This document shows, one piece after another, positions 6,949-32,229 of a DNA stretch of 64,000 bases. Each line of letters opens with the position of its first letter. Position 1 is the stretch's first letter. The notes below the pieces were generated by a model. That model did not search any database. It was not told where the DNA came from and saw only the letters and a program-made list of their open reading frames with translations. This stretch comes from an uncultured Anaerolineae bacterium (lineage in GTDB: Bacteria; Chloroflexota; Anaerolineae; Anaerolineales; Villigracilaceae). Where the stretch lies: NCBI GenBank assembly GCA_937120535.1, contig CAKZJX010000010.1, forward strand, positions 1 to 64,000, in the 5' to 3' direction. A program made the translations under genes and the position numbers.

Positions 6949-9408
6949 ATGTCTGGAATGGAACGCTTTACCCAACGGGCGAGACGGGTTCTCAGTCTTG
7001 CCCATAGCGAGGCCGAGCGGGCCCGTCACAACTACATCGGCACGGAGCACCTGTTGCTTGGCCTAACCGATGAAGATGGCGGCGTGGCCGGACGTGTGTT
7101 GCGCGAGCTTGGCCTAGACCCGGCTCGGGTGCGTGAGATGGTCGAGCGCCTCTCGCCCTCCGGCCGACATAGCGGTGGAAAGATCGACCTAGCTCCTGAC
7201 ACGCAACAAGTTCTAGAATACGCAGTGGAAGAAGCCCGCCGCATGGGCCACCACTACATCGGAACCGAACATATCCTGCTGGCATTAGTGCGCGTGGATG
7301 GCGTGGCGCTGGAAGTGTTGCGCCGCTTGGGCGTCACCCCCGAACAGATTCGTCGTCAAACCCGCCGTGTATTGAACGAATCGGCATCTGCTCCTGCCAC
7401 GGCCGGCCCGCAACGCGGACAGAGCACGGCCAAGACGCCGCTGGTAGACCAGTTAGCGACCGACCTGACCAGCAAAGCCGAAGAGAAAAAGCTCGACCCG
7501 GTCATCGGTCGCGAGATGGAGATCGAACGGGTCATTCAAATCCTGGCCCGGCGCACCAAGAACAACCCGGCCCTGATCGGTGAGCCGGGCGTGGGCAAGA
7601 CGGCCATTGTAGAAGGCCTGGCCCAGCGCATCGTCGAGGGCGACGTCCCGGCCCCCTTGATGAACAAGCGCCTGCTCCAGTTGGATGTCGGATCGCTGGT
7701 GGCGGGGACCATGTACCGCGGCCAGTTCGAGGAGCGCCTCAAACGAGTGATTGAAGAACTCAAACAGTCGGGTGCCATCCTATTCATTGACGAAGTCCAC
7801 ATGCTGGTGGGGGCGGGCGCGGCCGGCTCCTCAGTCGATGCCGCCAACATCCTCAAGCCAGCCCTATCGCGCGGTGAACTCCAGGTGATCGGCGCAACCA
7901 CCCTTGACGAGTATCGCAAGTACATCGAATCCGACGCCGCCCTAGAGCGTCGCTTCCAACCGGTGCATGTAGAAGAGCCGAGCGTCGAAGAAACCATCGA
8001 GATCCTGAAAGGCCTTCGTTCGCTATACGAAGAGCATCATCACCTGGTCATCACCGATGATGCCCTGCAGGCGGCAGCCAACCTCTCTTCGCGCTACGTT
8101 ACCGACCGTTTCTTGCCCGATAAAGCCATCGACCTGATCGATGAAGCAGCTTCTCGCGTTCGCATGTACAAGAGCCCGGCCGCCAAACAGGCCAAAGAAC
8201 TCTACCGACAACTACGCATTGCTCGTCAGAACCGCGCCCTGGCCCAAGAAGAAGGCAACCACGAAGATGTCCGCGAATGGGAGGAACAGGCTCTTGAACT
8301 GGAAAGCCAGATCGAACGTCTGCGATCTGGCTGGGATCGGGAAAACAGCCCCAAAGTCACTGCAGAAGATATCGCCGAAGTCGTGTCCATGTGGACAGGT
8401 GTGCCAGTGATGCAATTGACCGAAGAGGAGTCGCAGCGCCTGCTCAAGATGGAGGATGAACTGCGCAAGTCCATTGTTGGGCAGGAGGAGGCCATTGTGG
8501 TCATCTCGCGCGCTGTCCGTCGCGGCCGTGCCGGCTTGAAAGACCCGAGGCGGCCGATCGGCTCCTTCATGTTCCTCGGCCCGACCGGCGTGGGCAAGAC
8601 CGAATTGACCAAAGCCCTGGCCAAATTCCTCTTCGGGAGTGAAGACGCCGCCTTGCAATTGGACATGTCCGAGTTCATGGAGCGGCATACCGCCTCGCGA
8701 CTGGTAGGCGCGCCACCTGGCTATGTGGGCTACGAAGACGCCGGCCAACTCACCGAAGCCATCCGTCGCCGTCCCTACTCGATCGTGGTCTTCGACGAAG
8801 TCGAAAAAGCCCATCCCGAAGTCCACAACATGCTTTTACAGATCATGGAAGAAGGTCATCTCTCCGATGCCAAAGGGCGCAAGGTGGACTTCCGCAACAC
8901 CATCATCGTTATGACCTCCAACATCGGCGCAGAAATGATCAAGCGCCAGACCGGCCTGGGTTTCCAAACCAAGCACAGCGAGGCGGCTGAGGATCAGATC
9001 CCCTACGAGGAGATGCGCAAGAAACTGAACGACTCGTTGCGCCGATCGTTTCGGCCTGAATTCCTCAACCGCCTGGATGCCGTGATCATCTTCCGGGCCT
9101 TGAACAAGGAAGACATCAAGCAAATCGTCCATCTGGAACTGAACAAGGTGGCCGAACGCCTGAAAGAGCACAACCTCACCCTGGTGGCCGCCCCAGAAGC
9201 GCTTTCCACCCTGGCCGATCTGGGCTTCGACTCGGAATTCGGCGCCCGACCTCTGCGGCGCGTGATCCAGCAAAAAGTGGAAGACCCGCTCTCCGACAAA
9301 CTGTTGGCCGGCGAGTTCCAGAACGGTGACACCATCCTAATTGCCGTCGAGGACGGCGAGATTGTGCTCAATAAAGCCGAGGAAAATCTGGCAGAGATGA
9401 GCATGTAG
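6949..9408 (+). CDS. clpC: ATP-dependent Clp protease ATP-binding subunit
   Basis: Clp N repeats, two AAA+ modules ([18 protein letters not shown]), UVR-like middle region. Confidence 0.95.
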
Positions 9409-9443
9409 TAAGCTTGCCAAGCCAGAGAACTCCCAAAGACACA

Positions 9444-9480
9444 AAACAGGCCGGCCCGTTCTCGGGCTGGCCTGCTGTTT
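9444..9480 (+). terminator. Rho-independent terminator after clpC
   Basis: CAGGCCGGCCCG-ttct-CGGGCTGGCCTG stem followed by ctgtttgt. Confidence 0.75.
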
Positions 9481-9679: not shown

Positions 9680-10228
9680 CTATCGGTTGGCCAGGCGCAA
9701 CCGTCGGACCAAAACGATCACGACCAGCAGGGTGAGCGTGATCACCATCAATCCTGGTGCGCCGGTTTGATCGAGGAAGCCAGTTTGTGGCAAAAGCGTA
9801 GAGGTGGGCAGGACGGTCGCTGTCAGCTGGGCCTGTGCAGCCTGAGTCAGGGCGGCAGCCACCGTGGCCGTGGCCGGATCTGGAGTGGCCATCATCGCGG
9901 GGGTCGGTTGTTGAACCACCGGTGTTTCGGTGGGAGCCAGAGTTAGGGTGGCCATAGCTTGCATGGTGAGGGCGTCTGCAATGGCCGTTGCGGTCAAGCC
10001 CTGGCTGACCAACAGCTGCTGCGCCACCAGCGTCGCCTGCTGGCTCTGGCGGACAGCTGCCTGGCGGGGCAAGATGACCAACCCATAAACAGCGATCAGG
10101 GCGATCGAGATCAGAACCAACCCACCGAGGATCGCCGCCGCAATGAGAAAGGTGCGATTCCCCGACTCTTCCGGTGGCTGTTCCTTCTCTTCAGCCCAGG
10201 GGGTCAATTCCTCATCTTGTTCGAACAT
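9680..10228 (-). CDS. Membrane protein with N-terminal TM, Thr/Ala/Pro-rich region and LPxTG-like C-terminus
   Basis: TM FLIAAAILGGLVLISIALIAVYGLVIL; LLPQTGF, then hydrophobic segment and RRLRLANR tail. Confidence 0.7.
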   Translation of the reverse strand: MFEQDEELTPWAEEKEQPPEESGNRTFLIAAAILGGLVLISIALIAVYGLVILPRQAAVRQSQQATLVAQQLLVSQGLTATAIADALTMQAMATLTLAPTETPVVQQPTPAMMATPDPATATVAAALTQAAQAQLTATVLPTSTLLPQTGFLDQTGAPGLMVITLTLLVVIVLVRRLRLANR

Positions 10229-10297
10229 GGGCCACTCTCCTAAAAATTAGTTTTTGGAGGCGTTGACGTTTGGCGCACGCAGGACGGCGCCAGGCAA

Positions 10298-11353
10298 TTA
10301 TCCCACAACTTCCAGATTTGCCAGAGGGACAAGCAGCTCCTCGTTGGTCTCTAGGCGTACCTCAGCGGCCGGCGCGCGCAGGCCGCTGGGCAAGGAAACC
10401 GCCTCCTCATACAGCCGAACAATGGACCCGATGGCGCCGTATCGTGTGCCGGCCCGCAGGCGCACCTGCTGCCCTTCGGCAAAGGCGATCACATCTGCTG
10501 GAGGAACCGGCTCGATCGCCACCGGTAGGGGGATGATCACCTCAGGGCGTGCTCCGCTGAATCGATCGGTGCTCTCGGCGTTAACGGAAGCCTCGCGCTT
10601 CACGTTGGTGCTCAGCAGGCGATAGGCAGCGCTGTTCATCGGGATGTGACCAAAGCCATCGGTCACCAGGATCGGATAGCGCATCTGCAAGGCCAAGGGA
10701 AGGAGCGGGGGATTCAAGCTCGATAGGATCAGGCCACGCACAGGCAACTCGGCGGCGGTGTTCAACGTTTCCGCGTCGTGCACGATCCCGCCCAAGATCA
10801 CCATGCCGCGTAGGCTCACATCCAGGCGATCGGGCCGGAGCACTGTATCCGGAGCGTCCATAAGATTGAATAAGACCCCGCTCTCGATCCGCCCGTTGCC
10901 CCACACGCCCTGGATCAGTGCACCCGCTGTTTGAATCACAACCCCACGGTCGGGGATCACCTCGATTACCTGGCCGGGCAGGCCGGCCCGTAGCACCAAA
11001 TTCACCTCGCCGACCTCAAGCAGGACGCGCCCGCCTCCCGCCACAACCACCCGCCCATCGCGTGGAGCGCGCACTTGGCGAGGAAACGGCCCGCGCGTCA
11101 TGGCGATCAACGAATTGGCGATCAATTCATCGCCCTCCTTGCAAACAATCAAACGGTCAGCTGTAGCAGGCGAGACGCCCAGCTTACGAGCCACATCGAT
11201 CAAAAGATGCTCACGCGCCCAGCGCGCCTCGGCGACCACATCCCCGGCCGAGAGGCGTTGATTCAAGCGAGCGTGTAGTACGCCGGGTACCGGCAAGAGG
11301 CGCTTGCGTTGAATGGTGGTCAGGGGAAGGATATGTAGGACGGGCGCAAGCAT
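10298..11353 (-). CDS. Conserved hypothetical protein with barrel-sandwich-like N-terminal half and KOW-like C-terminus
   Basis: Long ORF directly downstream of the MutL gene; C-terminal FAEGQQVRLRAGTRYGAIGSIVRLYEE resembles KOW. Confidence 0.7.
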   Translation of the reverse strand: MLAPVLHILPLTTIQRKRLLPVPGVLHARLNQRLSAGDVVAEARWAREHLLIDVARKLGVSPATADRLIVCKEGDELIANSLIAMTRGPFPRQVRAPRDGRVVVAGGGRVLLEVGEVNLVLRAGLPGQVIEVIPDRGVVIQTAGALIQGVWGNGRIESGVLFNLMDAPDTVLRPDRLDVSLRGMVILGGIVHDAETLNTAAELPVRGLILSSLNPPLLPLALQMRYPILVTDGFGHIPMNSAAYRLLSTNVKREASVNAESTDRFSGARPEVIIPLPVAIEPVPPADVIAFAEGQQVRLRAGTRYGAIGSIVRLYEEAVSLPSGLRAPAAEVRLETNEELLVPLANLEVVG

Positions 11354-11356
11354 GGG

Positions 11357-13156
11357 TTAGCCTCCCAACGTCCAGAGCCATTTCTGGAAGAGTTCACGTC
11401 GCCGAACGGGATCCGCCGGCAGCGGAATCGGACGTCCACGAGCGTCGATCACCACCCCCAGCGCACCGCCGTTGACCGTAACCGTCTTGCTCTGACCAGG
11501 ACCGAAGCCTACATCGGCGCGGCGCAGCGGTTGCAGCGATAGGCGTGCCGTTTGACCCACTGTAAGGGGAAGGGTTTCCAGCGCGCCTTGTCGGATCTCC
11601 AAACGGGCTTCGTTCCCGTCCTCATAGCGCAAGCGGACCCGCAGGACGGGAGTTCCGTAGTGAGCATCGCTCACCACCGAGACCGTGGTCCCTAGGTTTT
11701 GGAAAGCGCCTGACTCGAGGACATGTACTGGCAAGATAGCGTTCCAGCTGGCGGCGACCCCCAGCAGAGGAAGGACGTTATATCGGTCGAGCAACACTTG
11801 GGTGATCCCAACCGGCTGGATGGCATCCAACAGCAACAGCAGATTCTGGCCGGGTGTCGTGCCGTCGGTCAGCGGGCCCCCGCTGGCAAACAGAAATTCC
11901 AGGCGAGGCATCAAGTCTGGGCGTAGGACAGGGGCGTTTTCGGGAAAATCTCGTCGGGCGGCTTGAATCGCCAGGTAGAGCATCTGACGTGAAATGGCCT
12001 GGGCAATCGAGCGATCTTCGGGGGTGGCAGGGATGATGGAAGGGTAAAGGACCCGTTGGTAGATGGCGTTGCGCATGCTGCTTTCTGAGATATCTAAGGA
12101 AAGCCAACGCATAAAGTGATCGAGCGGGATCTGGTGCAAGATAGTTGCCAGATTCTCCCCTAGCCCGTATTGGGGATAGACCCGCAAACACAGATCGCCG
12201 TCAAATCCAGCCAGGACGTGGGCTGAGGAGGCGCCTAACCCCACGTTTAGAACCCCGCTGCTGGCTCCTGTTAACCGACTCAAGAATCTCACAATGCGGC
12301 CGGCGGCATGGGCGGTCGGCAGCAGATGTCCCTTGGTCCAGCCGGCCAATTCTTCCATCCCATTGAGCTGCTTGCGGCGGATGAGGTTGACCAGATGAGC
12401 CAGCTCATGCATCGCCGGACTCACGTCCTCCGTGTCGAGCGACGGGCGCACGTTTGGACTGATACGGAGTGCCGAGCTGAGGGGGGCCAGCAATTCTTGA
12501 ACGTTTTCAGCCAGGCTGCTGTTGCCGGCAAAGAGGATAGCTGGACGTCGCTCGTTGGGCATCAGGTAGCAGGCCAACCCGACGATGTCGAGCATCTGTT
12601 GTATGGCGTGCGAGGCGCCGCCATCGGTGCCACCGGTCACGATGATCAGGTCGGGACGGGCGCGCAGCAGGGCATCGATCTGCTCGTCTGGGTGTCGGCG
12701 ATCGTTCAAGCTCAGGCGTTCCACGATCTGGCCATACGTGCTCTCTGCTAGACGCCGGGCCGACTCCAGCGAGACCTCGGCTAGCAGACCGACGATAGCA
12801 ATGCGCAGCGCCGACCCAGCCGATACCGTCGCCACCACTGCATCCACGCCGGAGCCATCGGCCTGCGTCGGCACGATCAAGCGCCGTTGCGGATCGAGTA
12901 GGACCCGGCCGGTGATGTTTTGGACGCGTTCGATCGCTTCTCGAATCCCTAGGCCGATGTCTTTGTAGGGGGCTTCGGCTGTGCTTCGTGCTTGACCGGC
13001 AGCCAAAAAGCGATAAACCCCCTCCACTACGTCAAATAGCACGGCTCGCGTGGTAGAGGGGCCAACGTCAATTGCTAATAATGAGTTTCCTTCAACCAAT
13101 GAGATCGGCATCGAGCGGTCTCCTGCCGCAGCGAGATAGGCGATTGAGGCTACCAC
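11357..13156 (-). CDS. MutL/GlmL-family ASKHA protein (glutamate mutase accessory-like)
   Basis: N-terminal LLAIDVGPSTTRAVLFDVVEGVYRFLAAGQARST; central IIVTGGTDGGAS; MutL-family-like over most of its length. Confidence 0.82.
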   Translation of the reverse strand: MVASIAYLAAAGDRSMPISLVEGNSLLAIDVGPSTTRAVLFDVVEGVYRFLAAGQARSTAEAPYKDIGLGIREAIERVQNITGRVLLDPQRRLIVPTQADGSGVDAVVATVSAGSALRIAIVGLLAEVSLESARRLAESTYGQIVERLSLNDRRHPDEQIDALLRARPDLIIVTGGTDGGASHAIQQMLDIVGLACYLMPNERRPAILFAGNSSLAENVQELLAPLSSALRISPNVRPSLDTEDVSPAMHELAHLVNLIRRKQLNGMEELAGWTKGHLLPTAHAAGRIVRFLSRLTGASSGVLNVGLGASSAHVLAGFDGDLCLRVYPQYGLGENLATILHQIPLDHFMRWLSLDISESSMRNAIYQRVLYPSIIPATPEDRSIAQAISRQMLYLAIQAARRDFPENAPVLRPDLMPRLEFLFASGGPLTDGTTPGQNLLLLLDAIQPVGITQVLLDRYNVLPLLGVAASWNAILPVHVLESGAFQNLGTTVSVVSDAHYGTPVLRVRLRYEDGNEARLEIRQGALETLPLTVGQTARLSLQPLRRADVGFGPGQSKTVTVNGGALGVVIDARGRPIPLPADPVRRRELFQKWLWTLGG

Positions 13157-13824
13157 CCAAATAGGGAGAGCATAGCCTGCACACGTTCGACCAGGGCCGT
13201 CAGGGCAGCCAAGTATACTCCGGCAAATAGGGCGCCGAAGGCGAGCGCTAGGAACAATTTGCCCATCCAGGAGGCAATCTCAACCACAGGGTTGCGCCGA
13301 ATGGAACCATCCCGTTGACGACGCGCACCGAAATGGAAGTACGCCAAGGTGGAAATGGTCCCGATCAGCATGACGGCGCCGTTGAACAGGGCCTCGAGCG
13401 GGTTTATCCCACGCTCGGCCAGGGCTATCAGATCAAATGGCTCGCTAGCCGCCAGGAGTTGGGGAACCAGGGTGCCCTGGACAGCGCCAAGGATGGCCAC
13501 GGCTGCGCCGGCCCCAACCAGATAGCCCACTGCCGGCCCTCCTAACCAGGCCAAGCGCGAGGAGATCCGCATAAGCAGCAGCGTTCCAAGCACTAAGGGA
13601 ACGACCAACAGGCTGCGCTCAAGCATCGGAGCTTGCGCCAGAGGAAGGATCAGGTAGGGCCAGAGCACCTGGTAGAGCATGACAACAGCCACATAGCCGG
13701 CGGTGACGCCCACAAAGATGTGCACGGCAAATCGAAATAAGGGAGTATCGCCAAACAGGTAGCTGAATACCATTACGGTGAGCAGGAAGCCAACCAAGCT
13801 GGAGAGAAACTCGGGATTCAGCAT
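13150..13824 (-). CDS. Integral membrane protein, conserved hypothetical
   Basis: Multiple hydrophobic segments; ATG at 13824 overlaps the upstream stop (TGATG); the longer ORF start at 13941 is unlikely. Confidence 0.75.
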   Translation of the reverse strand: MLNPEFLSSLVGFLLTVMVFSYLFGDTPLFRFAVHIFVGVTAGYVAVVMLYQVLWPYLILPLAQAPMLERSLLVVPLVLGTLLLMRISSRLAWLGGPAVGYLVGAGAAVAILGAVQGTLVPQLLAASEPFDLIALAERGINPLEALFNGAVMLIGTISTLAYFHFGARRQRDGSIRRNPVVEIASWMGKLFLALAFGALFAGVYLAALTALVERVQAMLSLFGW

Positions 13825-16349
13825 CACTCTTCTGCCTTGTTTGGAGAGTAGCGTCCACGAACCCGAGCCACCAAGCTCACTATTCCACCCAACAAGATCA
13901 GTAAGACGACTAGAGATAGGGCGATGTGATAGGCGTTCCAATAGGCGCTCACTGGGCTGCTTAGGTTGCTCGTGGCTTCAAAAGCGGCACCCACCGGGAG
14001 TCCGCTCAATAATCCATGTGCTTGGCCGGAGAGCAGGTAGGGTTGGATGAGGGGAGCTGCCTGGGTGCTGGCGATAACGACCAGGAAATTTCCCTGGCGC
14101 TGATCGCCTGTCTGTTCGATCCACGCTCGGGCAAGGCCGGCTTGGTCGGTGAGCAGGATCATGGCACGATAGTCGGAGAACCGCTGGACGGCCTGCAGAG
14201 CTGGGCGATTCCAGAGTTCGGACGGCAGCGCCAACCGAGGATAGAGGGCAAAGGTGCGAATGCCCACCACACCGCCAGGCAGGTAGCCAAGGCGAATAAA
14301 GGTGTTCTCTAGGGAGGGATATCGCTGTTCCAGGCGAGTCAGGAATCGCTCCGCCAGGGCCATGCCGGTGGGTGAGGTGGAAAGGGCAGTGATGTTGGGT
14401 GAGCGCAATCCAAGCAAACGATCCACGAAGGGAATCGCTACGGCCTCTAGCTCGCCGGCCAGGGCCGGCTGATAATCGAAGATCATCAGCAGGGGTGCGT
14501 TAACTGGCAGGGCATCTAGCACCTGTAGAGCGCGATTGCTTTCGATAGGCAGTCCGACAGGCAGAGGAATGGCGCGGAAACCGACGATTTGTACAGCAAG
14601 GACCGTTAGCACTAACAGAGTTGCTAGGGCCCATCGTAGTGTTTTCTGCGAGGCGATGAGCAAGCTGCTGCGGATGGGTTTGGGTTGGGCTTCGGTGTTG
14701 AGTATTTGTTCGAGCAACAGAGCATCGGCTTGTTGGGCCTCACTGGCTTGAAGCAGCAAGCCTTGGGGTTTGGGTTTGCCGGAGATGAGCACATCGATCG
14801 GAGGTAACACACCTTGCAGGCCGGCTAACGGACCGCTAACTTCTATTGGAACGTCTTCTTCAAGGGATGTTGGCGCACCGGTCAACACGGTTTCCACGGG
14901 ACGCATGGCTTGCACCCAGGAGGGCAGCTCGGCCGGAGCGAGATCTTCTAAGAAAGGTGGTTTGGGCTCCTCGGCCGGAGTGATAGCCGAGAGCCATTCG
15001 GGCATTTCAAGCGAGAAGATGTCTTCGCTGGCGGCTGGGCGTGCTTCTTCTTGAGGGGCGAGGAAGGCCGGACTGCGCGGAAGTTCGGTTGGAGCTGCGG
15101 GCGGCGTCGGAGCAGTGGTGGAGGCTTCTTCTCGGGCGAAGGAGGCGAGATACTCGGGCAGGGCGGTTTCCACCGGACCCGCTGGCTCGGTTTCTGCGCC
15201 GAATGGCGGGGGGCCGGCCTCGCTGGGTTTGGAGCTACGTGGCCAATCGGGGAGGTCGGCCTGCTGGAAGGGTTCAACCTTCGGCGGAGGCGCCGTTGCT
15301 GCTTGGAGTTGGCTCAGCCAGTCGGGCAAGGCCGAATCAGGGGGAGCGGCTTGGAGAGGTAGAGTCGGCCCCTCGCCTGGGCCGGTCGAGGGCAAGTGGT
15401 CTAAGGGGAAGGAGGGTTCTGTGGAAACGGGAGCAGTTTCTGCCGGCGCAGCGGTTTCGACCGCAGATTTCAGCCAATCGGGCAAATCAAAGGTGTCTTC
15501 GGCAGGCAAGCCGCGGTCTTCTGCTCGGGTCAGGGCTGCTTCGGGTTCGGTCATGCCGGCAAACCAGTCGTCGAGCGACGTGCCGGCAGCCGGTGCGAAG
15601 GGAGAGACGGCCGGCAGTGGAGTTTCTTCTGTTGAAGGGGGTGGTTGGGGTGCAGCTGTTTCTGCCGTCGCTTGATTTAGCCAATCAAGCAATTCACCCG
15701 TAGCCGGAGGAGTTGGTTCTTCGAGGAAGGGTGAGGTGGTAGGAGGCTCTGCCGAGGGGGGTGATGGTTCGTCTAATCGTGAGAGCCAGTCAGAGACCTC
15801 GTCCAGCGGTTTGGCTTCCTCTTCAGGGCCCCGAAGCCAGGACATCAAGTCCGCTTCTTCCGCCTCGGGCGCAGAGATTTGGGCAACGCCGCCTAGTTCG
15901 TCAGGAGCGAATGCTTCGGGGGCGAATTCTTGGAAGGTGAAGGCCGGTGGGGTCGGTGGGGGTGATTCGGCGAGGGCTGACGGAGGGGAGAATTGCTCGC
16001 GCAACCAATCGGGAAGTTCTTCGTCTTGGGCTTCGTCTCGAGCCACCGCTTCGAGACCGGCTAACCACTCGGGGAGGTCCGACGAGGCGGCGGGTTCGGC
16101 AAGAGGCGTTTCTCTTTTTTCTGGTTTTTCTTCTTGATCGGTGGTTGTAGAGCGAGCGGCCTCGCGGGCCTGACGCAACCAGTCGGGCAGCATAGGTTCG
16201 AGTTCGGAGGTGGATTTTTCTGTGGGCACCAGGCCAGGACGAACACGCTCTTTATCGACAATGGGATGAAGAGCATGCTGGCAGAAGAAGCACCGATCTT
16301 GCTCGGGAGGGTTTGGCGTACCGCAGTTGGGGCACAGGATCTCGCTCAT
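13824..16349 (-). CDS. Zinc-ribbon, repeat-rich membrane protein with LPDWL-type motifs
   Basis: N-terminal CPNCGTPNPPEQDRCFFC; about a dozen LPDWL-like motifs in Pro/Glu/Ala-rich region; TM segments in the C-terminal part. Confidence 0.8.
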   Translation of the reverse strand: MSEILCPNCGTPNPPEQDRCFFCQHALHPIVDKERVRPGLVPTEKSTSELEPMLPDWLRQAREAARSTTTDQEEKPEKRETPLAEPAASSDLPEWLAGLEAVARDEAQDEELPDWLREQFSPPSALAESPPPTPPAFTFQEFAPEAFAPDELGGVAQISAPEAEEADLMSWLRGPEEEAKPLDEVSDWLSRLDEPSPPSAEPPTTSPFLEEPTPPATGELLDWLNQATAETAAPQPPPSTEETPLPAVSPFAPAAGTSLDDWFAGMTEPEAALTRAEDRGLPAEDTFDLPDWLKSAVETAAPAETAPVSTEPSFPLDHLPSTGPGEGPTLPLQAAPPDSALPDWLSQLQAATAPPPKVEPFQQADLPDWPRSSKPSEAGPPPFGAETEPAGPVETALPEYLASFAREEASTTAPTPPAAPTELPRSPAFLAPQEEARPAASEDIFSLEMPEWLSAITPAEEPKPPFLEDLAPAELPSWVQAMRPVETVLTGAPTSLEEDVPIEVSGPLAGLQGVLPPIDVLISGKPKPQGLLLQASEAQQADALLLEQILNTEAQPKPIRSSLLIASQKTLRWALATLLVLTVLAVQIVGFRAIPLPVGLPIESNRALQVLDALPVNAPLLMIFDYQPALAGELEAVAIPFVDRLLGLRSPNITALSTSPTGMALAERFLTRLEQRYPSLENTFIRLGYLPGGVVGIRTFALYPRLALPSELWNRPALQAVQRFSDYRAMILLTDQAGLARAWIEQTGDQRQGNFLVVIASTQAAPLIQPYLLSGQAHGLLSGLPVGAAFEATSNLSSPVSAYWNAYHIALSLVVLLILLGGIVSLVARVRGRYSPNKAEE

Positions 16350-16975
16350 GTTTTCTCACCATAAGGACGATCGAGCGCAAATAGGACGCGCAGGCCCGTC
16401 ACCAGCGCTCCCAGGGCAACTCCCAGCAATAGGCCACGCAATCCGCCGGCGACCGGGCTGAACAATAACCAGGGGCGCACCCAATCGCTTAGGATGGGTA
16501 TTTCTCCCAAGAATGGCAAGGAGACAGATGAAAGCAACCAGAGGACCACAATGGCTAAGAACAGGATGGACATCCAATCTGCACGGCGGCGCAGGAGTCG
16601 CATGGCGGCGTAGAGGAGCGTGACGGCCAGTAAAGCCATGAGCGAGGCTTCCACCGGTACAATGATGGCTTCTACGGCAACTTGCATCCAGGGATGGGAG
16701 GGGCCTCCTAGTACGCCGATGAACAGGGTTGCTAATAAGGCAACCAACAAGGTAAGGCTGTCGAGCGCGCCTGCCTGGCGCCGGCGGACTCGCGAAAAAT
16801 GGACAGCAAACAAGTTGCCGATGCCCACCAACACGGCAATGCCAGCCAGGATCATCCCCCATTGCAACAATTGCATGCTGATCGATCGCAAGAGGGGGAT
16901 GGGCAGGATCGATCCTATCAGGATGAGAGCCCCGATAGCGATGGCAAAGGCGGTTGGGACGAGCCATGATTTCAT
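16346..16975 (-). CDS. Integral membrane protein, conserved hypothetical
   Basis: About six hydrophobic segments; ATGA overlaps with both neighbours. Confidence 0.75.
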   Translation of the reverse strand: MKSWLVPTAFAIAIGALILIGSILPIPLLRSISMQLLQWGMILAGIAVLVGIGNLFAVHFSRVRRRQAGALDSLTLLVALLATLFIGVLGGPSHPWMQVAVEAIIVPVEASLMALLAVTLLYAAMRLLRRRADWMSILFLAIVVLWLLSSVSLPFLGEIPILSDWVRPWLLFSPVAGGLRGLLLGVALGALVTGLRVLFALDRPYGEKT

Positions 16976-17712
16976 AGCATCCCTACCCCTTTCAGGCCGG
17001 CCAGGATCAATAAGGTCAGGATGATCAACCAGCGCAGCACGTCCTGTACTTGTAGGCTAGCACGTTGGAACGCCTCTTGACCGACATAGGCTGGAGCTGC
17101 AAAGAGTTCTTCGCCGACCAGCGGCTCTGAAGTGCTGGCAAAGAAGATCGCTTGGGCAGAGGGCTCCATCGCCGCTGCGATAAGGGAGGTGTTGGCGCGT
17201 TCGGCGGCATCGGCCAAGAGCCCGGCTTCGGCCCCGAAATCACCGATTACGATGTTGGTCGAGACGTTTTCTTGGGAAATGACGCTCATCGCTCCAGCGG
17301 CATAGGAAAAGGGGGTCAGGCCGCTCAGCTGAGCCTGGTTGGGCTGAAATCGTTCTTCTTCGCCGGTAGCTTGGTGTGCCGTTTGAAGGGTGTCGTGGGA
17401 GAGGAGCGCTAGAACGGCGTCGCCAGAAGTGGCGATCGGGGGACGGTCGCCAATGGAAGCCCCTTCTCCGATCTTTCGCAACAGAGCTAAGGCAGCAAAT
17501 GAGGCGGCACCGCGTGGTAGGAGCAGGTCGCCGTGACCTAGAGCAAGGTGCAGACGAGTCCCTTCTTCCACCGAGATTGCCGTCGCTCGGCGCAGACGGG
17601 AGAAAGCGGGGATGTTGCGCAGAGTGACGGGCGTTCTGCGTTGTAAAAAGCGCAGGGCCGGCAAAAGCACCGCTGCGATCAGGATCAGCGCTAATGCGAC
17701 CAAATCGATCAT
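16972..17712 (-). CDS. Membrane protein, DUF6754-like
   Basis: N-terminal TM and RLHLALGHGDLLLPRGAASFAALALL; ATGA overlap with neighbour. Confidence 0.65.
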   Translation of the reverse strand: MIDLVALALILIAAVLLPALRFLQRRTPVTLRNIPAFSRLRRATAISVEEGTRLHLALGHGDLLLPRGAASFAALALLRKIGEGASIGDRPPIATSGDAVLALLSHDTLQTAHQATGEEERFQPNQAQLSGLTPFSYAAGAMSVISQENVSTNIVIGDFGAEAGLLADAAERANTSLIAAAMEPSAQAIFFASTSEPLVGEELFAAPAYVGQEAFQRASLQVQDVLRWLIILTLLILAGLKGVGML

Positions 17713-17948
17713 CTCAACTCCTCTTCGCGCAGATAGGCTGCGAAGGCATGGCGTGCCTCTTCATCTTCTAGGAGATCAGCCAGGGCTTCGCTTTGTTCAC
17801 CGAGCAGTGGACGGGCAATGAAGAGTGCCTGCGCGCCAAGCAAAACAAACGGTGCGCTAGCTTCTAGCAACCAAGCAAACCAATCAGCCAGGTTGAGGTG
17901 ACGCAGGTGATCGGCCCAGGTCACCCATTCTGCTCGTAGCCTATGCAT
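17709..17948 (-). CDS. Small (79 aa) hypothetical protein, first gene of the MutL operon
   Basis: ATG at 17948, TATACT 6 nt upstream; overlaps the next gene by 4 nt. Confidence 0.6.
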   Translation of the reverse strand: MHRLRAEWVTWADHLRHLNLADWFAWLLEASAPFVLLGAQALFIARPLLGEQSEALADLLEDEEARHAFAAYLREEELR

Positions 17949-30247: not shown

Positions 30248-31726
30248 ATGAATCCCAGACCCGATTTCTACGCTATTCTAGGGATTAGCCGGGATGCTAC
30301 CCCCGAGGAAATTCGGCGTGCTTATGTTGAGGCCGCTCGTCGCTTACATCCGGACAAGAACGTGGCTCCAGGGGAAACCGAACTCTTCTTGGAGATTCAG
30401 CAAGCCTATGAGACCTTATCCGATCCGAAGCGGCGGAAAGCCTATGATGCCACTCTGCCGCCGGCCGAGTCGACCTCAAGCATTCTCACTCCCGAAGTGA
30501 TCTTCAGCCGACCCCAATTGGTGCGTTTGAACGAACCCCAGTTGATCTACGTCCTGCTCACCCTACGCCCCAGCCCGGAACAACTCTCTCTACCGTTGCC
30601 TGCGCTCAATGTTTGCCTGGTGCTCGATCGATCTACTTCGATGAAAGGGGTGAAGATAGACCTACTCAAGGCGGCCACCATCCAGTTCCTGCGCAGCGCG
30701 CGCCCAGAGGACATTGTTAGCGTGGTCGCCTTCAGCGACCGAGCAGAGGTGATCATCCCGGCTTCCTATTACCGCGATCGGTTGCGGCTGGAAACCCTAG
30801 TTCGCAACATCCAACCCTCCGGTGCCACCGAGATCTTTCAGGGCCTGCAAACTGGCCTGGCCGAAGTGCAACGCGCCTACAACAATCAACGTATCAACCA
30901 CATTATCCTGCTCACCGATGGCTACACCTATGGCGACGAGCAAGCCTGCCTAAACCTGGCTGAAGAAGCCATGCGCAACGGGATCGGAATTAGCGCCTTC
31001 GGATTGGGCACTGAATGGAATGACATCTTCCTCGATCAACTGGCCGGCCGGACAGGCAATACCAGCGCCTACATCGCCCATCCAAAAGACATCCAAAAAT
31101 TTCTGCTCGAAAAATTCAAGGAACTCACCAACATCCTGTGCGATGAAGTTGTCCTGATGGGTGAATTGAGCCAAGGGGTGCAGGTGAATTACGCCTTTCG
31201 TCTTCAGCCCCAGCCCGGACCTATCCCCTTTCATCACACCACCGCTCTGGGCACCGTGATCAGAAGCGAGGGACTAAGTGTCTTATTTGAATTTCTCATC
31301 CATCCCTCCGCCCTAAATTCCTCTCCCTTGACACTTTGGAGCGGTCGAATCAGAATTTCTATGGCCTCTCAACCGATTCCACCGCCTCCTATTCCCTTGC
31401 GCCTGGAGCGCCTCGTCGAAGAAGACGCTTCCCCCGAGCCACCTCCGCCAGCAATCGTGCAGGCTCTCTCGCGCCTCATGCTCTACCGCCTATACGAACA
31501 AGCCCGTCAAGACATCCAGGCCGGCCATCACGAACGGGCAACGCGCTTACTCAAAAGCCTTGCCGAACACCTTATTCGGCAAGACCAACATCAACTGGCC
31601 CACACTGTCCTGCTCGAAGCAGAACACCTCCAGCGTAAGCGCACGTTTTCTCTGACTGGAGAAAAAGAGATCAAATATGGCACGCGCGCATTGTTATTAC
31701 CTCCCCCAGGGAGTAAGCAAACATGA
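30248..31726 (+). CDS. DnaJ (J-domain)-VWA fusion protein
   Basis: J domain with HPDKN; VWA MIDAS DRSTS; LTDGYTYG. Confidence 0.92.
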   Translation: MNPRPDFYAILGISRDATPEEIRRAYVEAARRLHPDKNVAPGETELFLEIQQAYETLSDPKRRKAYDATLPPAESTSSILTPEVIFSRPQLVRLNEPQLIYVLLTLRPSPEQLSLPLPALNVCLVLDRSTSMKGVKIDLLKAATIQFLRSARPEDIVSVVAFSDRAEVIIPASYYRDRLRLETLVRNIQPSGATEIFQGLQTGLAEVQRAYNNQRINHIILLTDGYTYGDEQACLNLAEEAMRNGIGISAFGLGTEWNDIFLDQLAGRTGNTSAYIAHPKDIQKFLLEKFKELTNILCDEVVLMGELSQGVQVNYAFRLQPQPGPIPFHHTTALGTVIRSEGLSVLFEFLIHPSALNSSPLTLWSGRIRISMASQPIPPPPIPLRLERLVEEDASPEPPPPAIVQALSRLMLYRLYEQARQDIQAGHHERATRLLKSLAEHLIRQDQHQLAHTVLLEAEHLQRKRTFSLTGEKEIKYGTRALLLPPPGSKQT

Positions 31727-32229
31727 ACATTTGCAGCAAATGCCTCTGCCCGAATCCGGTGGGTGCTCTTTTCTGTGCTGAATGTGGCGCATCCTTGATC
31801 CCCACAGAGCTGACGACCCAGTCATTTCGCACCGATCGTTTCGATGCTTCTGCCGACGGCGCGATCGTTTCGCCTCCTCCCATTACCCTTCCCCATCGAG
31901 ACCAAGCTTGGGCATCGCTGCACTTGATCGAGAGCGGTCACATTTTGCCCCTCGCCGACCGCAACGACTACACCCTCGGACGATACACTGAAGGCCAACC
32001 GATCCTGCCTGATATCGATCTCTCCCCTTATCAAGCCTACGCAGCAGGAGTTTCGCGCCTCCACGCCCTGATCAAGCGTGAGGGCAAACGCGTGATCATT
32101 GTCGATCTGGGTTCTTCCAATGGAACCTACGTCAACGGGAAGCGACTAACAACCCGCACAGAACACCTCCTGAACCATGGCGACATCATAGCGCTTGGCA
32201 AACTCAAACTTCAAATCCTACTACACTGA
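31723..32229 (+). CDS. Zinc-ribbon plus FHA-domain protein
   Basis: CSKCLCPNPVGALFCAECG; FHA-like YTLGR..SRLHALI..DLGSSNGTYVNG. Confidence 0.92.
   Translation: MNICSKCLCPNPVGALFCAECGASLIPTELTTQSFRTDRFDASADGAIVSPPPITLPHRDQAWASLHLIESGHILPLADRNDYTLGRYTEGQPILPDIDLSPYQAYAAGVSRLHALIKREGKRVIIVDLGSSNGTYVNGKRLTTRTEHLLNHGDIIALGKLKLQILLH

Follow-up and report, generated by a model that had tools for sequence, protein, structure and literature searches.

A conserved membrane-associated gene cluster with a MutL-like ASKHA protein in Chloroflexota and a second phylum

Contig CAKZJX010000010.1 (GCA_937120535.1) from an uncultured Anaerolineae bacterium of the Chloroflexota encodes a MutL-like protein within an operon of membrane proteins, which raises the question of what such a protein does away from glutamate mutase. 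We examined the operon in a window of 64,000 nt of this contig, to which all positions below refer unless another locus is named.

Layout of the operon and its membrane proteins

The ORF list and translations show eight tightly packed minus-strand genes, designated A to H, at positions 9680-17948, and all eight head-to-tail genes reported in the first-pass annotation are present. The A/B, B/C and C/D pairs overlap by 4 nt and the D/E pair by 1 nt, while F and G are separated by 3 nt; between G and H lie 69 nt, and an AGGAG-like site precedes H. The 7-nt overlap of E and F hinges on an upstream GTG as the start of F. Since most F relatives begin to align at about residue 16 of F, the ATG at 13111, about 38 nt past E, is the likelier start and probably the true one by sequence. 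Of the overlaps of 1-7 nt described earlier, those between A and E therefore stand, whereas the E/F overlap is doubtful and the last two junctions are spaced. A promoter scan gave fewer matches than shuffled sequence. A GC-rich inverted repeat at 9443-9474, between H and a convergent clpC-like gene (6949-9408), is possibly a shared terminator.

Only B and F matched Pfam families over threshold, with none for the other six proteins, and nearly every part of the system is uncharacterised. Gene A (17709-17948), the first gene of the cluster, encodes a small conserved protein of 79 aa that has no Pfam family; of the loci fetched, 80 contain a homologue. Gene B (16972-17712) belongs to DUF6754 (PF20539), scoring 91 bits against a gathering cut-off of 27 as its earlier assignment implied, and the positive-inside rule gives it a TM helix, a cytoplasmic domain and a second TM helix. 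DUF6754 has no assigned function and no mention of it was found in the open-access full-text literature, and the cluster provides the family with a set of partners. Genes C (16346-16975, by hydropathy) and E (13150-13824, 224 aa with an ATG start) encode polytopic membrane proteins that are conserved between two phyla.

Gene D (13824-16349) encodes a protein of 841 aa in which a cytoplasmic zinc ribbon and LPxWL repeats are fused to a TM helix, an extracytoplasmic domain and another TM helix; the positive-inside rule places the tail with ribbon and repeats inside and the C-terminal domain outside. The repeat region (14913-16193), here called Dn, contains 7 strict LPxWL motifs, compared with a mean of 0.05 in 500 shuffles. 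Among the ORFs examined, this motif is specific to D. The description of D as a zinc-ribbon repeat protein was borne out for the repeats and for the visible Cys pattern, although the ribbon scores below the Pfam thresholds. The C-terminal part, called Dc (13827-14702), was predicted by AlphaFold2 (mean pLDDT 93.2) as a Rossmann-like domain of alpha/beta type with a TM helix on either side, and its comparison with solved structures gave chance-level matches only (best E 0.003, TM about 0.3). B and Dc were also considered as paralogues, and this was rejected at a profile comparison probability of 3.9. Elsewhere in the window, a plus-strand gene (31717-32226) encodes a protein with an FHA domain and a zinc ribbon similar to the one in D, and a similar protein occurs at L070:3038-3994.

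Gene G (10298-11353) follows F in the operon, and its AlphaFold2 model has a mean pLDDT of 92.5. The N-terminal half is all-beta and in many relatives shows similarity to barrel-sandwich domains of the RnfC_N or biotinyl type; it is followed by a small domain of alpha/beta type, similar to a swivelling domain (2hi6), and by a C-terminal KOW domain (Foldseek, and Pfam over 43 relatives), so the KOW/barrel-sandwich assignment made at first pass is supported. RnfC_N was matched in 31 of the 43 relatives (best 5.5e-7) and not in G of the window itself, and one relative from the second phylum was barely over the cut-off. When solved structures were searched by sequence, the top match of G covered 29 residues of a lysozyme chain, and the next was an Spt5 KOW. 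RnfC and NqrA are barrel-sandwich subunits of membrane redox complexes, and G may resemble them in its N-terminal region and as a soluble subunit beside polytopic membrane proteins. Unlike them, G has no Cys clusters and carries a C-terminal KOW domain, and no Rnf or Nqr subunits are found among the operon proteins.

The MutL-like protein and glutamate mutase

Gene F (11357-13156 with the upstream start) encodes the MutL-like protein. The MutL likeness noted from the sequence at first pass is confirmed by PF13941 (MutL), with 189 bits against a cut-off of 27 and an ASKHA domain that spans nearly all of the Pfam model, and F is the single PF13941 gene of its genome. Against the GlmL equivalog NF040745 (NCBIfam), F scores 89 bits, far under the cut-off of 475. 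No GlmE was found in the own genome; among 251 Chloroflexota genomes GlmE exceeded the cut-off in five, none of which has B, and among 61 genomes of the second phylum it occurred in none, while F occurred in 55. GlmS was looked for in the neighbourhood only, and the operon has no GlmS-like gene. True GlmL loci of Chloroflexota (L044, L045 and L058) have mutase-like neighbours and served as a positive control.

The C-terminal domain of F (11360-11719) also sets it apart from GlmL. A segment with the pattern G-x-x-G-x-x-x-D-A-R-G-R-P, in the stricter form G-x-x-G-[VLI]-[VI]-[VI]-D-A-R-G-R-P, is present in every F group of the alignment and missing from GlmL, and a search with the DARGRP pattern retrieved F relatives in 555 of 598 stretches. 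In an unrooted tree with some long rows, the five GlmL/B12 rows formed a clade with 100/100 support and a branch length of 1.07, separate from every F. F thus shares with GlmL the PF13941 domain and the phosphate-1 motif, whereas it differs in having no mutase partner, an extra DARGRP domain, a constant association with G and a place in a membrane operon. Judged by these sequence comparisons, F is not GlmL, and a role as glutamate-mutase partner is largely refuted by the absence of GlmE, the NF040745 score and the tree, in a genome-wide search that covered GlmE. The earlier proposal that a MutL-like protein is used here away from glutamate mutase is supported, with no GlmE in the own genome or in any of the B-bearing Chloroflexota genomes sampled. 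A conserved mutase elsewhere in the genome, which the same annotation had named as evidence against its proposal, was looked for as GlmE and not found. In Chloroflexota, the annotation 'MutL/glutamate mutase L' is misleading in most cases, and the open-access full-text literature yielded no paper on PF13941 outside mutases.

Both a true GlmL beside GlmE and a separate operon-type F occur in one genome (G160; L057 and L058), a naturally occurring pair in which the two functions could be compared. At L061:4221-8024 (+), a B12-binding-like N-terminal part and a MutL/GlmL domain share a single frame of 1268 aa.

The nucleotide site of F is only partly kept. The phosphate-1 motif D-x-G-x(3)-T is intact in F of the window (IDVGPSTT), while the Asp of phosphate-2 is replaced by Gly; this Asp is kept in 87 of 101 Chloroflexota operon relatives and in all 25 F proteins from the second phylum. 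The adenosine motif is altered in many F relatives. Since phosphate-2 carries Gly and adenosine motifs are altered, ATP hydrolysis may be lost here, and it is possible that F of the window is no longer an ATPase. The label of ASKHA ATPase is thus confirmed for the MutL/ASKHA domain and questionable for the activity of this copy. Sequence searches of solved structures gave no relatives for F or B. A weak 'Permuted GreAB-C' match in one F had suggested a transcription factor, and this was dropped when 0 of 23 members had that match.

Conservation of the cluster and its two modules

From the 251 Chloroflexota genomes drawn, 40 regions of at most 20 kb were retrieved, almost all of them surrounding a PF13941 match, and a one-genome-per-species scan for F relatives gave 80 further loci. 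Iterated profiles of the window genes revealed the order A-B-C-D-E-F-G(-H) in many Chloroflexota families. The full order A-H is intact in more than 60 loci (Anaerolineae), and most of the remaining loci are broken by contig ends. Therefore, a chance arrangement is excluded, and the parting of the genes in relatives, which had been put forward as a finding that would speak against a system, was not what the loci showed. Cultured species among the loci are Bellilinea caldifistulae and Thermanaerothrix daxensis. In Chloroflexia, the upstream gene encodes D-Tyr-tRNA deacylase.

The genes also occur in the same genomes. Among the 56 Chloroflexota genomes with B, the tally found F in 55 and G in 55, with Fisher p values of about 4e-16 and 3e-15, respectively, which are uncorrected for phylogeny and include weak ASKHA matches in the tally of F. 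The lone genome that seemed to miss F (G081) has it split over two contig ends, which brings F to 56/56, and in the lone genome that misses G (G219) the contig stops 139 nt past F. B and F lie on the same contig in 46 of the 56 genomes.

The cluster extends to a second phylum, presumably Armatimonadota, of which 61 genomes were sampled and 22 loci fetched. B is present in 52 of these genomes, F in 55 and G in 54, all three are absent from six, and the genomes with B contain F in 52/52 and G in 51/52 cases. B, C, D and E stand together in 21 of the 22 fetched loci, with C and D about 5 kb apart in the other (L177), and A precedes B in most of them. D of the second phylum is Dc alone, and no LPxWL repeats were seen in the fetched loci. 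F and G adjoin the core in a minority of these loci and are often unlinked from B. Since B never occurs without F in the second phylum though the two are often unlinked, the coupling outlasts the loss of linkage. A MAG of this phylum, titled Chthonomonas calidirosea, has two DUF6754 genes of its own, both with strong scores, and one contig of the Chloroflexota A-H type (L093/L158, G251:C158), and this contig is probably mis-binned. Tandem duplicates of B (L175:9446-11268) and of Dc (L168:11307-13148) occur in the second phylum. A PH-like upstream gene of the second phylum was considered as well and set aside, having no Pfam support.

Based on these comparisons of gene content, the cluster is composed of two modules, a membrane core A-B-C-Dc-E and a cytoplasmic set Dn-F-G. 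At most of the second-phylum loci sampled, the core has no F or G beside it. Conversely, a minimal locus occurs in several Chloroflexota families, where Dn, here a zinc ribbon with LPxWL repeats, adjoins F and G and the membrane core is missing; sampled members of five such families (f18, f26, f28, f42 and f44) gave no DUF6754 match. In Chloroflexia-like families (f21, f31, f56 and f59), G is not beside F but elsewhere in the genome. In five related Chloroflexia genomes it has response-regulator and ATP-synthase genes nearby, apparently through shared ancestry, and no neighbours of unlinked F or G recur across lineages. The cluster is not built around F alone, because at most loci of the second phylum the core occurs by itself and F-G is often unlinked there. 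D of the window is a fusion of Dn and Dc, each of which is found alone elsewhere. This fusion is a Rosetta-stone link and the strongest sequence argument that the two modules work together.

Gene sets that two phyla keep together, or within the same genomes, usually serve a basic cell function. We consider it probable that the cluster represents an undescribed conserved membrane machine in at least two phyla (Chloroflexota and presumably Armatimonadota), combining a DUF6754/Rossmann-ectodomain core with a MutL-derived ASKHA protein and a barrel-sandwich/KOW unit, and unrelated to glutamate mutase. The suggestion of an undescribed system made at first pass is supported in that the membrane-associated system is conserved and apparently undescribed, whereas the role in envelope assembly or maintenance put forward there is speculative. 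Its newness lies in its composition, no described system of this make-up having been found, rather than in a new biochemical activity.

A proposed machine and its alternatives

We tentatively suggest, at somewhat less than an even chance, that the operon encodes one machine, in which a membrane module A-B-C-D-E is served by the soluble F and G, docked through D in Chloroflexota. In this machine, C and E would be the polytopic components, B would contribute the cytoplasmic DUF6754 domain and D the Rossmann-like domain outside the membrane. The cytoplasmic tail of D, with zinc ribbon and LPxWL repeats, would most likely be the docking platform that brings F and G to the membrane in Chloroflexota. 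Since LPxWL was unseen in the second-phylum loci, it is not a universal docking device. F and G would then bind the membrane module and might assemble, regulate or reset it, probably in a nucleotide-dependent manner. GlmL, EutA and DdrA are reactivases, and they are taken as a model for the working mode of F-G, not for family membership. The membrane-linked ASKHA proteins PilM, GspL and FtsA, together with EutA and DdrA, resemble F in being ASKHA-fold proteins that work with a partner complex, whereas F is not a member of these families by sequence and pilus, secretion, division and diol-dehydratase genes are absent here. Since Dn-F-G occurs without the membrane core, F and G must also have some role that is independent of it. 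Physical interaction, docking through LPxWL, ATP use and any cellular function are what we infer from this arrangement, and the domain fusion in D makes the interaction of the modules testable.

An alternative that we regard as unlikely is that F and G form a cytoskeleton-like or scaffold unit, with FtsA, PilM and MreB as actin-fold models. F would polymerise or cluster, the multivalent LPxWL tail of D would form clusters at the membrane, and A-E would be an anchor rather than a client. The ASKHA fold, a weak MreB-like_C similarity in second-phylum F, the short motifs repeated in the long low-complexity cytoplasmic tail of D and the degraded nucleotide motifs of F, which fit a structural role, are consistent with this. 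However, F has no above-threshold sequence relation to FtsA, PilM or MreB, division, pilus and shape genes are not linked to the cluster, and the Rossmann-like ectodomain and the cytoplasmic DUF6754 domain point to a ligand or enzyme role rather than to anchoring.

It is rather improbable that the two modules have separate roles, with A-E as a constitutive envelope transporter or enzyme, F-G acting in the cytoplasm, for example with the KOW domain and zinc ribbon as contacts to the ribosome or RNA polymerase, and the operon as a convenience of co-expression. G resembles the KOW regions of NusG, Spt5 and ribosomal S4e, Dn-F-G exists without the core, and F-G is unlinked from the core in many genomes. 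On the other hand, KOW/SH3-like similarity is generic, with low global TM-scores (0.16), D joins Dn and Dc in a single polypeptide, and B is never without F in either phylum. Although the PF13941 domain and the true GlmL and B12-binding-MutL fusion of the same phylum would favour it, a role of F as GlmL or reactivase for a B12-dependent mutase, encoded elsewhere or too diverged to detect, is very improbable in view of the GlmE distribution, the equivalog score and the separate clade described above. An anti-phage defence system was rejected, with 0 PADLOC matches for the eight proteins, no PHROG matches, no DUF6754 in viral contigs and housekeeping neighbours.

Beside the one machine that we prefer, gene H (9680-10228) looks, from its sequence features, like a surface or membrane component that was added to the system and could be processed by sortase. 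It encodes a signal-anchor-like N-terminal TM helix and a Thr/Pro-rich stretch followed by the complete tail of LPxTG motif, hydrophobic stretch and positive end (LPQTG-TM-RRLR), as had been noted at first pass, and an LPxTG-like motif is conserved in 73 of 85 H relatives. Sortase (PF04203) has two matches in the own genome, and sortases are present in all 21 genomes of the family (21/21).
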